Positions 29,496-34,499 of a stretch of 45,907 bases of DNA are shown here, one piece after another. The stretch spans positions 1 through 45,907 of the forward strand of contig JALZVU010000110.1 in the NCBI GenBank assembly GCA_023301795.1, given 5' to 3'. Positions within the stretch are counted from its first letter, which is position 1, and each line of letters opens with the position of its first letter. Below the pieces are notes generated by a model. That model searched no databases. It saw nothing but the letters and a program-made list of their open reading frames with translations, and was not told where the DNA came from. A program made the position numbers and the translations under genes. Origin of the DNA: Granulosicoccus sp. Lineage in GTDB: Bacteria; Pseudomonadota; Gammaproteobacteria; Granulosicoccales; Granulosicoccaceae.

Positions 29496-29840
29496 AAGAT
29501 CTCTCGCTATCGTTGTGTTTGTCAGGTGATCAGTTTGCACACACCCGATGCGATGTACTGAGGTGTGGTGCACACGTAGTGCAGAGAACGGTGCAGCAAA
29601 TGACAGTGTGCAGCTACTTTCATGATCCAAGTGGCAAAAACGTGTGAGCACCCGTTTAGATAGGTTCGACAGTCATTGTAGCTGCGGCACTCTAAGCAGA
29701 ACGATTGATGTATCGATTTATTGCTGAATCGCCATATCCAGCAGATTGAGCACTATTTCATATTTCACCACTGATCAGAATTCTCCTACCCAAATACCAG
29801 CGCTTTTCCGATAGTACGGCAACGCGCGCTGTCGCATACT
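29496..29840. other. Non-coding stretch upstream of the DUF3135 and sRNA genes
   Basis: About 345 bases that must hold the promoters for the minus-strand DUF3135 gene and the plus-strand sRNA. I see no coding sequence, no TGTAAG-N6-CTTACA UvrY/GacA box and no clear promoter. Confidence 0.45.
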
Positions 29841-30073
29841 AGCTGTGCGGTCAGGGAAGGCCGTGGCAGTCACGACAAGGAACGTCGAGAATGAGTGGAC
29901 AATGACTCAGGTAAAGACAGCCGGCAAGGAATGCCAGTGCTATCGGACGTCGCTAAGGACAGCAAAACAGCTTGTAGAACAGGCTGTAGAGCAAGGATGC
30001 TCTTCAAGGATCGATAGTACGTTCACCAAGGATGGTGCCCAAGCCTCCGGCTAGTAGTCGGGGGCTTTTTTTT
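29841..30073 (+). ncRNA. CsrB/RsmZ-type CsrA-sequestering small RNA
   Basis: No protein-coding sense is seen, but a GGA motif recurs in short hairpin loops. Stems and loops: GGTC-AGGGAA-GGCC (29849-29862), CGAC-AAGGAAC-GTCG (29873-29887), TGAGT-GGACAATG-ACTCA (29892-29909), GGCA-AGGAA-TGCC (29923-29935), GCT-AAGGAC-AGC (29952-29963), AGAGC-AAGGAT-GCTCT (29988-30003) and CACC-AAGGAT-GGTG (30024-30037), plus unpaired AAGGA at 30006-30010. This repeated (A)AGGA-in-a-loop design is that of Csr/Rsm RNAs, which bind several CsrA/RsmA dimers and relieve translational control. The 3' end is fixed by an intrinsic terminator. The 5' end is a guess: a CATACT at 29835-29840 could serve as -10, but no -35 is clear. 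No characterised family member is recalled as identical. Confidence 0.82.
30042..30073 (+). terminator. Intrinsic terminator of the Csr-type sRNA
   Basis: AGCCTCCG pairs with CGGGGGCT (one G-U pair) around a 9-base loop, running directly into eight T. It closes the RNA four bases after its last GGA hairpin. Confidence 0.9.
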
Positions 30074-30181: not shown

Positions 30182-30302
30182 ATAACGATATTCCAAAAAA
30201 TTAACCCCGTTTTGCGCTTACATACGTTTAGGGAGTATTCAGTGCAGATTAACCTTCGTGGCATCTGTGTTTTATGTCTATAAACTGCTTTCAGGTACCG
30301 CC

Positions 30303-33300
30303 ATGTTTTCACGAATCAAACCGACTCCCCTCCTCTGGATCATCATTACGCTCATTGTATTGAGCGCAACATTCAGTCGTGCTGCCAATACTCCTGCCTC
30401 ACTAGTCAGCGATGATCTGGGCGGCAGCACACGCTACCTTGCCTACGTGAGCACCGACAAGCCCATCTACCGGGAAGAGGAAAACGTGTATCTGCGCACG
30501 GTTTTCTTAAATGCCAACGACAACACACCACTGGACACAGAACAAAGCACCGTTCAGGTGAAAATTAGTGGACCCAAAGGGGACGTCGTGCACGAGGGTC
30601 GGGCACATGGAGACGGCAGTGCTATCGGCTACCAATGGCAGGTGCCTGCTGGAACGGTTGGCGGCCAATACACAGCCACCATCAGCAGCCCAAGCCTGGG
30701 GGTGGCGCAAACTGAGCGAACCTTTGATATCCGCGCCTTTCGAGCACCTCGCCTTAACACACAGATTGAATTCACCCGTGATGGCTATGGCGCTGGCGAC
30801 ACAGTAAAAGCCAGTGTTTCAATAGAACGGGCAGAAGGTGGAATCCCGACGAATGCCTCCATAACTGCGATAGCAAGATTAGATGGCGAAGAGATTTACC
30901 GTGCCAGCAGCCTTAATGTGGCCGATAGCGGCGTACTAGACACAAGCTTCACCCTGCCAGAGCACATCAGTACTGGGATTGGCAGCCTTGCATTTGTTAT
31001 CGAAGATGGCGGCGTGGTTGAAACCGCCAGTAAAAGCCTACCCATCGTATTGCAGGTGATGGATATATCTTTTTATCCAGAGAGTGGTGAGCTTGTCGCA
31101 GGACTTCAAAGCCGTGTGTATTTTCAAGCTGTATTGGCCAATGGCAAACCTGCTGATGTACAAGGCAACATTATAGAAATCCAAGGCGACACACTGGGTA
31201 CGGATACTATTGCCAGCTTCGCATCCACACACGAGGGGCGTGGGTTGTTCGTATTCACACCTGAACAGGGCAAGCAATACACTGCCGTATTCACAGCACC
31301 TTCCGGGATCACCCAACCTGCACTACTACCAGCGACTAAAAAAATTGGTGCTGTTATTGAAAGCCTACATACAGCTTATGACTTCGACGAACCTATTGCG
31401 CTATCGATTACCTCCAACGTTGCAGGCTCAGCTGCGCTGCTTACTTTGCACAAACGTGAACTCTTGCTGGATAGTCAGGCTGTAAGTGCAAGTGCTGGCA
31501 ATGTAGACGTCAACGACAATAGCAGTTCACTGACGCATAAATCACACAAAGTACAGCTTGATGCTCAAGACGCAGAAGGCGTTCTTATTGCAACACTGTG
31601 GAACGATAATGGCCAGCCTCTGGCAGAACGGCTAATCTACCGACATCCACGGTTCGGGCTCAACATTGAACTGACACTTTCAGAAGGCCCGTTCATTCCA
31701 GGTGCCAACGTCAGCGTCGACATACTGACTACCGACGAGCGCGGCAAGCCGGTAGAGGCTGTGGTGGGCTTAACTGTCACAGACGATGCCGTTCTTGAGT
31801 TAATTGAAACAAGACAGCAAGCACCGCGCTTACCAACCATGGTGTACCTTGAAAACGACGTGCTGGATCTGGCGGATGCACACGTCTATCTGGACCATAC
31901 CGATGACAAGGCTGCTGACAACATAGACTTGCTGCTAGGAACGCAGGGCTGGCGTCGATTTGTACTGCGCGACTACAACGAGATCAAGCAACAGCATCCT
32001 GCCAACATTGCACGTGTAATGGCCGAAATGACTCAGCCTGTCCCACAAATCATGATGCTACAGCGGGCAAACAACAGAGTAGAGGACATGCTGATGGACC
32101 AGGCCATCGCCGCAGTAGCAGTGGAGGATATTGCAGCTGTTGAGGCTGTTGAGGCTGTTGAGGCTGTTGAGGCTGTTGAGGCTGTTGAGGCTGTTGAGGC
32201 TGTTGTTCAGTTTGCACCACCGTTACCCGAAGCTGAAGAACTTGTGGATGTTAACGTTCAACAAAACGATGACATGGCAAAAATAGACCTTATGGGCGAG
32301 ATGCCTGCAATTGAGGCCATAGCCATAGATGGGATGGATAGGGAAATTATGCGGGCAGAACCCATCAATAATCGCTATATCCGAGAATTTGCGTTTCAGG
32401 CAAACGCAGACCGCCAACCCAACAAGCGAACTGACTTCACCGAAACGCTCTATTGGAATGCCGGTGTAAAAACCGGTGCACGCGACGGACGCGCTACTGT
32501 TGAATTTTCATTGTCCGACAGCGTAACCACATTCAGAGTGATGGCAGACGGCTATGGACGCAACGGCGCACTGGGTGCGGGCGATACCGTCATTGCCTCT
32601 GTTGAGCCTTTTTACATCACCACCAAAATGCCATTGAATGCAGTGGCTAACGATGTGATTGAACTACCCGTCACGCTTGTGAATACCACGACGACAACCA
32701 TCAATAACGTCAGTCTTGCTGTTACTGGACAAGGCATCAATACCAAAGAAATACCACCGATGAGATTGAAACCAGGAGAGCGACTGCGCAGCATTGTCAC
32801 TATCACAACAACCCAAGCTGGCATATTCCCGATTACCGTAGCTGCACAGGCTGGACCCTACAGCGATACAGTGACACGCGACCTCACCGTCTCGCCTGCA
32901 GGCTTTCCAGTATCAGAAAATGCGGGTGGCTTACTGTCCGCCACAGCACCCTTCAAAACCACGGTGACGATTCCAGAGGACGTAACTGCCGGCAGTCTTA
33001 AGGCAACGGCCACTGTATACCCATCACCCTTGGCCAGTATGGAAGGTGCATTAAGTGCCCTACTACGCGAACCCTACGGCTGCTTCGAACAAACCAGCTC
33101 AACCAACTACCCGCTGGTTATGGCGCAACAGTATTTTGATAGCCACACCGGCATTGACCCTTCAAAAATAGCGGCCTCCATGGGCTTACTGAAAACCGGC
33201 TACGGCAAGCTCACAAGCTTTGAATCCGAAGACAGTGGCTATGAATGGTTTGGAGCTAACCCTGCCCACGAAGCACTCACCGCCTACGGACTCATGCAAT

Positions 33301-34499
33301 TCACCGACATGGCAAAGGTCATGCCTGTCGACAACACCATGATAGAACGCACTCGCCAATGGCTGCTTGACCGGCGCGATGGCAAAGGAGGTTTCAAACG
33401 TAACGATCGCGCTCTGGATAGTTTCGGACGCGCACCAACACCCACCACAGATGCGTACATTGTCTGGTCTCTACTGGAAAGTGGTCAAAGCCCTAAGACT
33501 CTCGAGCTGGAAATCAGTCAGATAAAAGCGTTAGCGCTGACAAGCGATGATAGCTATATCGATGCACTAGCGGCCAACATCCTATATCTGTCTGGCGACA
33601 CGATCAGTGCTGATGTGCTGGCAAAACAACTGGTAGACGCCGTAGGCGATTCTGGTGCTGTGGATGGTGCAACTACTTCAATCACTGGATCAGGCGGAGC
33701 CGCATTAACCATTGAAACAACAAGTTTGGCACTGTTAGCGTGGCTTCGCGATGACGAAAAGTGGGCCGCCTCGGTAGAGACATCCATTAAGTGGCTATTT
33801 GAGACGAGCAAGGCCGGCCGGTTTGGATCAACGCAATCCACGGTGTTAGCATTAAAGGCCATTAACGCCTACGACGCCGCACGTGCAGTACCTAAACAAG
33901 CAGGAACTGTTCAGTTGGTTATTAATGGTAAGGCATTTGGAGAGCCTGTTGTGTTCACACCAGAGTCGAAAGGTACTATCGACCTACCTGCATTTAGCCA
34001 TCTCCTGGCATCCGGTAAAAACGACATTGAGCTGCGTATGAACGATGGCAGCAAGATGCCGTTTGCACTCGACATACGGTACAACAGCTCAAAACCTATC
34101 AATGCCGACACCAGACCGGTACAAATAACAACGGCACTAAGCCATAACACGGTAGTCGAAGGCGAACCTCTTGAGCTGACAGCCACCATCAGCACAGGTG
34201 AAGACAATGTACCTACACCGATTGCCATCATTGGTATACCTGCAGGACTTGAACTACGCCACGACCAGCTCAAGGAGCTGGTAGGTAGTGGCAGCATCAG
34301 CTCCTATGAAGTACGACAATCAGAGCTGGTGCTGTACTGGCGTGCACTTAAAGGTGGCGAGAACCGCGTGATATCGATTGGCTTGACAGCCGAAGTGCCA
34401 GGGAATTACACGGGTGCTGCCAGCCGGGTATATCCGTACTACACCGATGAGCAGAAGCACTGGGTAGCGGGGCATTCGGTGGAGGTTGTGGCGCGTTAG
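30303..34499 (+). CDS. Bacterial alpha-2-macroglobulin family protein with thioester
   Basis: 1398 residues from the ATG at 30303 (AGG ten bases upstream); a GTG at 30258 would add 15 residues before the signal peptide. Residues 1-27 form a Sec signal peptide ending SRA without a lipobox cysteine, so the protein is probably periplasmic and not a lipoprotein like E. coli YfaS. MG1 begins near 52 with TDKPIYREEE. MG domains continue to about 560. A low-complexity linker (about 590-690) carrying seven Ala-Val-Glu repeats lies where the bait or linker region falls. ETLYWNAG near 717 starts the A2M domain, and the thioester motif GCFEQ has Cys927 and Gln930. Such proteins trap proteases after bait cleavage. 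The usual partner pbpC is not adjacent. A transposase relic abuts the 3' end. Confidence 0.93.
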   Translation: MFSRIKPTPLLWIIITLIVLSATFSRAANTPASLVSDDLGGSTRYLAYVSTDKPIYREEENVYLRTVFLNANDNTPLDTEQSTVQVKISGPKGDVVHEGRAHGDGSAIGYQWQVPAGTVGGQYTATISSPSLGVAQTERTFDIRAFRAPRLNTQIEFTRDGYGAGDTVKASVSIERAEGGIPTNASITAIARLDGEEIYRASSLNVADSGVLDTSFTLPEHISTGIGSLAFVIEDGGVVETASKSLPIVLQVMDISFYPESGELVAGLQSRVYFQAVLANGKPADVQGNIIEIQGDTLGTDTIASFASTHEGRGLFVFTPEQGKQYTAVFTAPSGITQPALLPATKKIGAVIESLHTAYDFDEPIALSITSNVAGSAALLTLHKRELLLDSQAVSASAGNVDVNDNSSSLTHKSHKVQLDAQDAEGVLIATLWNDNGQPLAERLIYRHPRFGLNIELTLSEGPFIPGANVSVDILTTDERGKPVEAVVGLTVTDDAVLELIETRQQAPRLPTMVYLENDVLDLADAHVYLDHTDDKAADNIDLLLGTQGWRRFVLRDYNEIKQQHPANIARVMAEMTQPVPQIMMLQRANNRVEDMLMDQAIAAVAVEDIAAVEAVEAVEAVEAVEAVEAVEAVVQFAPPLPEAEELVDVNVQQNDDMAKIDLMGEMPAIEAIAIDGMDREIMRAEPINNRYIREFAFQANADRQPNKRTDFTETLYWNAGVKTGARDGRATVEFSLSDSVTTFRVMADGYGRNGALGAGDTVIASVEPFYITTKMPLNAVANDVIELPVTLVNTTTTTINNVSLAVTGQGINTKEIPPMRLKPGERLRSIVTITTTQAGIFPITVAAQAGPYSDTVTRDLTVSPAGFPVSENAGGLLSATAPFKTTVTIPEDVTAGSLKATATVYPSPLASMEGALSALLREPYGCFEQTSSTNYPLVMAQQYFDSHTGIDPSKIAASMGLLKTGYGKLTSFESEDSGYEWFGANPAHEALTAYGLMQFTDMAKVMPVDNTMIERTRQWLLDRRDGKGGFKRNDRALDSFGRAPTPTTDAYIVWSLLESGQSPKTLELEISQIKALALTSDDSYIDALAANILYLSGDTISADVLAKQLVDAVGDSGAVDGATTSITGSGGAALTIETTSLALLAWLRDDEKWAASVETSIKWLFETSKAGRFGSTQSTVLALKAINAYDAARAVPKQAGTVQLVINGKAFGEPVVFTPESKGTIDLPAFSHLLASGKNDIELRMNDGSKMPFALDIRYNSSKPINADTRPVQITTALSHNTVVEGEPLELTATISTGEDNVPTPIAIIGIPAGLELRHDQLKELVGSGSISSYEVRQSELVLYWRALKGGENRVISIGLTAEVPGNYTGAASRVYPYYTDEQKHWVAGHSVEVVAR
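32136..32205 (+). repeat. 9-bp tandem repeat (7 copies) inside the macroglobulin gene
   Basis: The unit GCTGTTGAG is repeated seven times without error (32136-32198), followed by a partial GCTGTTG. It encodes Ala-Val-Glu times seven (residues 612-632). Because the unit is three codons long, copy-number change would lengthen or shorten the linker without a frameshift. Confidence 0.97.

Follow-up and report, generated by a model that had tools for sequence, protein, structure and literature searches.

Positions 29843–30073 on the forward strand of the window, the 45,907-nucleotide stretch of a Granulosicoccus contig analysed here, very probably hold a stand-alone gene for a CsrA-sequestering small RNA of the Csr/Rsm type, one that is probably GacA-controlled and whose expression and CsrA binding are predictions. 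The host genome (G000; 5.78 Mb in 313 contigs) belongs to a lineage of marine gammaproteobacteria. A preliminary description had recognised the architecture of a CsrA-sequestering RNA at this locus, and the computed evidence supports that reading: the anatomy of the element, a fold and promoter boxes conserved in relatives, and two csrA genes and a UvrY/GacA-like gene, in gacA–uvrC order, in the same genome. In the mechanism we propose, a GacA/UvrY-type regulator would probably activate transcription of the RNA gene from a pair of phased, palindrome-like upstream boxes. The resulting RNA of ~230 nt would display A(N)GGA-like sites, seven or eight in number, on its hairpin loops and at a junction, bind and sequester several CsrA dimers, and so free CsrA target mRNAs. 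A similarly designed but shorter RNA, encoded on another contig (C66), would act alongside it.

The centroid fold of 29843–30073 comprises ten helices: seven GGA hairpins, one hairpin lacking GGA, a closing stem and a terminator (Table 1). Nine GGA occur on the forward strand of 29841–30073 compared with one on the opposite strand, and seven of the nine sit within small hairpins. The preliminary description is confirmed in its count of seven GGA-presenting hairpins; its statement that six of them carry AAGGA or AGGA needs correction, the contexts being AAGGA in five, AGGGA in one and GTGGA in one. An eighth GGA hairpin, at 29945, is counted under a loose rule and is not formed in the centroid fold. 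Hairpin 6 has no GGA in the window, and several congeners have one at the corresponding place. The strong intrinsic terminator with eight T was likewise present as first described.

Table 1 Features of the small RNA locus and its promoter region, in window coordinates
Feature	Position	Strand	Basis
Promoter box 1 (CAGAATTCTCCTAC), imperfect palindrome, putative GacA-type response-regulator site	29776–29789	+	A5 conserved block
Promoter box 2 (CAGCGCTTTTCCGAT), ~22 bp from box 1	29798–29812	+	Conserved core
−10-like hexamer CATACT; recognisable −35 absent	29835–29840	+	Sequence
CsrB/RsmZ-like small RNA, long type (predicted)	29843–30073	+	Fold energy, six strict GGA hairpins, R1 relatives
Open frame of 69 codons from a GTG, not considered a gene	29845–30054	+	Overlaps RNA
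Hairpin 1, loop AGGGAA	29847–29864	+	Fold; 6 pairs
Hairpin 2, loop AAGGAAC	29873–29887	+	Fold, structure-fitted alignment
Hairpin 3, GGA in loop	29892–29909	+	Fold; 5 pairs
Hairpin 4, loop AGGAA	29923–29935	+	Fold, structure-fitted alignment
Closing stem around hairpins 5–7 (29937–29945 with 30012–30020)	29937–30020	+	9 pairs
Hairpin 5, loop AAGGAC, only 3 pairs	29949–29960	+	GGA-hairpin count, fold
Hairpin 6, GGA absent	29967–29987	+	Fold
Hairpin 7, AAGGA	29988–30003	+	Fold, structure-fitted alignment
Further AAGGA, unpaired in predicted fold	30006–30010	+	Sequence, fold
Hairpin 8, AAGGA	30024–30037	+	Fold, structure-fitted alignment
Intrinsic terminator: 12 pairs (30041–30067), 3-nt loop, then eight T (30066–30073)	30041–30073	+	Sequence, terminator scan

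We then asked how often such an arrangement arises by chance. Six GGA hairpins remain in 29841–30073 when a strict rule is applied, requiring four or more pairs in the stem, two or more of them G-C, and no more than 8 nt in the loop. Dinucleotide shuffles (n = 2000) gave none in 864 cases, one in 763, two in 281, three in 76, four in 15 and five in a single case, so that six were reached in 0 of 2000. Amongst 4568 windows of 233 nt covering both strands of the 45.9 kb, only two, both at this locus, reached six. The plain number of GGA is unremarkable, at least nine being found in 66 of the 2000 shuffles; what is extraordinary is not the bare count but the placing of GGA in loops, just as the preliminary description had argued. 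The fold energy is also low (z = −3.78), with none of 200 shuffles equally low. Applying the strict rule singly to 19 RNAs cut from this and related loci, with 300 shuffles each, we found that the observed hairpin count was reached by at most 4 of 300 shuffles for 13 of the 19. The other six (G014, G012, G025b, G022s1, G022s2 and G009s) were not clearly above their shuffles (9 to 64 of 300). Summed over all 19, the RNA strand carries 146 GGA and the other strand 16. Two further loci, L140 and L156, were excluded from this set because a GGA-rich RNA was not seen after the box.

By score the RNA belongs to no Rfam family, and in its predicted function it is of a known kind. Searching 4227 Rfam families against the window gave 0 matches at threshold, in line with the earlier remark that its primary sequence matches no familiar Csr RNA; the top match under relaxed settings was rsmX (RF02144), which scored 23.1 bits where 56 are required. 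The CsrB model (RF00018) found nothing in the whole genome, in a search that detects the E. coli control. At threshold, no family of this class matched the G020, G014 or C97 loci described below. Weak matches to UPD-PK2, Spot 42, NsiR1 and ceN47 in the window, and to MicL and mir-2057 at these three loci, were taken as chance.

Relatives of the long RNA were sought by blastn and by model searches. A blastn search over 57 genomes returned G020 and, weakly, a copy in the window’s own genome (contig C97), and with the promoter part alone as query against 27 genomes of the genus, G014 was also found. A covariance model built from the window alone (R1) scored G020 at 112.9 bits, G014 at 59.5 and the own C97 copy at 23.2 across the 27 genomes, together with three weak matches. 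Two of these, in G006 and G024 (L124 and L125), fall within long open frames on the opposite strand (403 and 666 codons) and were left out of later alignments; the third, in G026, scored 10.4 bits. R2, a sequence model of the conserved promoter region that also takes in ~28 bases of the RNA, gave 36 rows over 48 genomes of the family, from which 21 loci were read, with four more being short-type loci that were read separately. It led to further GGA-rich RNAs in G019 (two in tandem), G012, G024, G001 and G025 (two in tandem), as well as in G027 and G028, which belong to different genera of the family. Jointly, R1 and R2 define ten long RNAs in 8 of the 48 family genomes, all of one genus. The two tandem pairs (L131 in G019:C35 and L135 in G025:C40) each consist of two RNAs separated by ~400 bp, both preceded by boxes of their own.

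Neither blastn nor the genome-wide R1 search had detected seven of these long loci, which score 36–66 bits with R1 when they are given to it directly. In this rescoring, 20 given loci produced 12 rows, comprising all ten long RNAs, G028 (19.8 bits) and one chance match (7.3 bits). None of nine short-type loci given to R1 matched as RNA. A model of all ten long RNAs (R3) recovers, by construction, its ten members at 124–199 bits in the 48 family genomes, where just one further row appears, the C97 copy (36.4 bits). The suggestion of a lineage-specific RNA fits as far as it was tested: of the 48 family genomes, the eight with R3 scores above 40 bits all belong to the window’s genus. Across 369 genomes of the class, with six candidates scored per genome so that weak or diverged copies could be missed, R3 exceeded 40 bits only in G000 and G014, both of that genus, and 12 other genomes had matches of 20–28 bits.

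The C97 copy (L008 2241–2394, + strand, G000:C97), kept out of R2 and R3 as uncertain, is a third, shorter copy, beginning where an ATPase-like gene ends. Tandem boxes were not seen upstream of it, and its fold is no better than that of shuffles (z = −0.25); it is perhaps a truncated copy.

With relatives in hand, we examined whether pairing or coding governs conservation of the long RNA. Two alignments, A4 and A7, were fitted to the window’s structure and are biased towards it. When G000, G020 and G014 are aligned in this way, 96.2% of cells are paired, and two-sided change is seen at 27 of 63 pairs, compared with 9.4 in shuffles; in the fitted alignment of ten sequences, the values are 90.3% and 47 of 63 pairs, compared with 29.1. 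Shifting partners by 1–3 columns reduced the paired cells to 31–46% in both. Amongst the three sequences, all cells of hairpin 1 are paired, with two-sided change at one pair, and such change occurs at 5/5 pairs of hairpin 3 and 2/9 of the closing stem; amongst the ten, it occurs at 10/12 pairs of the terminator. A sequence-only alignment of two sequences, the window and G020 (A1), has hairpins 1, 4, 7 and 8, the closing stem (9/9 pairs in G020) and the terminator pairing at all or all but one position, and hairpin 6 at 6/9. Hairpins 2, 3 and 5 are out of register there, and since A1 misaligns them we used the structure-fitted alignments, bias included. By these alignments, the predicted fold of the long RNA is kept through compensatory change.

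The overlapping 69-codon frame shows no such conservation. Were it translated, the locus would be a small protein gene and its GGA repeats incidental, a reading which we regard as extremely improbable. In its favour, the frame stays open for 69 codons from a GTG, tblastn against nine short sequences aligned its predicted product weakly with G020 (46 residues at 30%, E = 4e-6 in that small database), and the G019a copy is free of stops in the corresponding frame. Yet the translation has no Pfam match, alignment gaps not divisible by 3 fall across the frame in 9/9 long-type relatives, and 8/9 have in-frame stops. Moreover, base pairing rather than frame governs conservation, and the GGA excess is one-stranded and lies in loops. 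In the relatives it is the hairpins that are kept and not the frame, the reverse of what would have refuted the preliminary description, and we judge the frame not to be a gene.

The genomic surroundings bear on whether the RNA stands alone. It is flanked by genes for a Gly_transporter-family protein (28372) and an alpha-2-macroglobulin-type protein (30258), and a plasmid search gave no match. As it lies on the same strand as, and upstream of, the alpha-2-macroglobulin-like gene (30258–34499), it could be a structured leader of that gene. A strong terminator closes the RNA, however, and the G020 RNA sits between other genes. The closest alpha-2-macroglobulin among the matches listed (80 named loci), from an uncultured Granulosicoccaceae bacterium (66%; L011), has no such RNA upstream by reading or blastn, and synteny fails there. 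We consider a leader very improbable.

Other components of such a Csr circuit are present in the genome. Two csrA genes (C201 and C207) are both above the Pfam and NCBIfam cut-offs, their products being of 70 and 71 aa, respectively; over 54–56 residues the C201 product shows near-identity with solved CsrA/RsmA chains. The C201 gene adjoins what we take to be aspartokinase-like and alanyl-tRNA-synthetase-like genes, and that of C207 lies near what are presumably ribosomal protein genes. On C241, ~100 bases before uvrC, lies the gene for a LuxR-type response regulator of 217 aa that shares 43% identity with E. coli UvrY, an arrangement that is also the E. coli gene order; the best model for this protein is UvrY/SirA/GacA (NCBIfam), with a score of 209.8 that is below the cut-off of 280. 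An Hfq-type base-pairing RNA, whose GGA loops would pair with UCC-containing targets in place of acting as a CsrA sponge, is a very improbable alternative. It would account for the intrinsic terminator with its long T run, and GGA–UCC pairing is possible in principle; against it stand the many equivalent A(N)GGA-context sites carried on changing stems and the presence of csrA and gacA–uvrC in this genome.

We next considered how transcription of such a sponge may be controlled. The region upstream of the G000, G020 and G014 RNAs is strongly conserved. A sigma-70 consensus scan found no promoter before the RNA; the putative −10-like hexamer, within a CAYACTA kept in these three genomes, would place the RNA start at about 29846–29848. 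Upstream, a match to box 1 occurs at −66/−67 from the RNA anchor in 9/10 long-type loci (G001 is without), and a TTTCCGAT-like core at −38 in 10/10; the window has one extra base between boxes 1 and 2. Before the short RNAs, a AGGAAAATTCCTAC-type box lies at −91/−92 in 11/11 and a second box at −69/−70 in 9/11; the boxes of both RNA types are palindrome-like and spaced by 22 bp. All of these box patterns were derived from the same sequences in which they were counted. A scan of both strands of the window gave the pattern pair once, at the RNA promoter; among five further stretches of the genome it turned up solely at the C66 RNA. With one mismatch allowed, TAGGAAAATTCCTA occurs twice in the 5.78 Mb, once exactly (at the C66 RNA) and once with the mismatch, but its reversed control also has two, so this count alone says little.

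Known binding sites offer a comparison. A UvrY/GacA box is given as TGTAAGN6CTTACA in the consulted portion of PMC3171408. This motif did not occur beyond chance, and GacA-like control would therefore rest on different boxes. The LetA box of Legionella, TNAGAAATTTCTNA, fits 29775–29788 at 9/12 letters, with 10 matches in the window as a whole against 13.5 expected, no more than chance; a LetA box was not found in the part of PMC5928044 that was consulted, and a literature search with TNAGAAATTTCTNA yielded no paper. Separately, a lone CAGAATTCTCCTAC box (L156 1501–1536, + strand, G000:C5) lies upstream of an apparent protein gene, which we take to be SRAP-like, and not of an RNA. That gene may be under the direct control of the same regulator.

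To characterize the shorter RNA, we used the short-type locus of G024 including its promoter as a blastn query against the 27 genus genomes. It matched 13 of 27 at E ≤ 0.05, G024 itself counted, though in G022 only through the promoter part and in G023 only over 22 bases; the match in the window’s own genome is G000:C66:24016–24243 (E = 3.6e-20). Each of the other eleven short RNAs has 6–9 GGA, and its opposite strand 0–1; their alignment contains four GGA blocks without any variation. The transcript of the short locus would be ~150 nt long. In 10/11 a GGA lies within the terminator hairpin; the own copy is the one without (L165 1481–1631, − strand, G000:C66), its terminator loop being AAGAA. 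Taken alone, the own short RNA folds no better than shuffles (z = −1.12), which speaks against strong structure there. Its neighbours are presumably D-aminoacyl-tRNA deacylase-like and rhodanese-like genes.

By eye, a 5′ GTGGTCA is complementary to a near-3′ TGACCAC in most members of the short-type alignment (A9, L158–L168). The own genome has the variant GTGGTTA with TAACCAC, and complementarity is incomplete in G016 and G005. A long-range 5′/3′ pairing in the short type, competing with a local 5′ hairpin, is possible.

Known systems show both likenesses to the long RNA and differences from it. It resembles Pseudomonas RsmX/RsmY/RsmZ in its multiple unpaired GGA/ANGGA motifs and palindromic upstream element, as these are described in the consulted part of PMC2375449, and in there being more than one such RNA per genome; its loops recall the RsmZ-2 control hairpin CCCCGAAGGAUCGGGG in the portion of PMC4066749 seen. 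It is unlike those RNAs in its length of ~230 nt, its low rsmX score and its promoter boxes. With E. coli CsrB it shares the design of a GGA-motif CsrA sponge. Legionella RsmY/RsmZ are GGA-rich RNAs that a GacA homologue (LetA) activates via a conserved upstream sequence, and the long RNA is like them in its GGA content and, putatively, in this mode of control; CsrB and RsmY/RsmZ are both described so in the consulted section of PMC5780407. It is shorter than the 356-position CsrB model, and the boxes here, unlike those of Legionella RsmY/RsmZ, form phased tandem arrays, the sequence link to the latter being compared via Rfam only.

Searches of the open-licence literature for Granulosicoccus with CsrA or small RNA, and for Granulosicoccaceae with regulatory RNA, found no report. 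The present analysis places the parts of a Gac/Csr circuit and two kinds of predicted sponge RNA in this lineage, for which that literature holds no such report. It also provides a worked case in which Csr-type RNAs far under Rfam thresholds are recoverable through models of promoter boxes and fold built from a single example; an earlier computational search for such RNAs was reportedly made by Kulkarni et al. in 2006. A wider picture, which we put forward tentatively and hold to be rather doubtful as a whole, would combine genus-wide two-tier CsrA sponges outside Rfam (long and short, sometimes in tandem), a new response-regulator array (GTAGGAAAATTCCTAC and variants with 22-bp phasing, two or three per promoter) and a short-type terminator hairpin that serves as a CsrA site. 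If true, this last element would tie termination or 3′-end stability to CsrA occupancy.

Three of the 12 weak class-wide R3 matches stand out by their GGA content: L180 1501–1637 (+) in G192, L186 1501–1727 (−) in G185 and L188 1501–1676 (+) in G081, whose RNA strands carry 9, 9 and 5 GGA, respectively, compared with 1–2 on the opposite strand. The other nine have 1–4 GGA and are not distinctive, L189 being 5S rRNA and L183 overlapping a tRNA. L180, L186 and L188 have no Rfam match at threshold and look like further Csr/Rsm-type RNAs.
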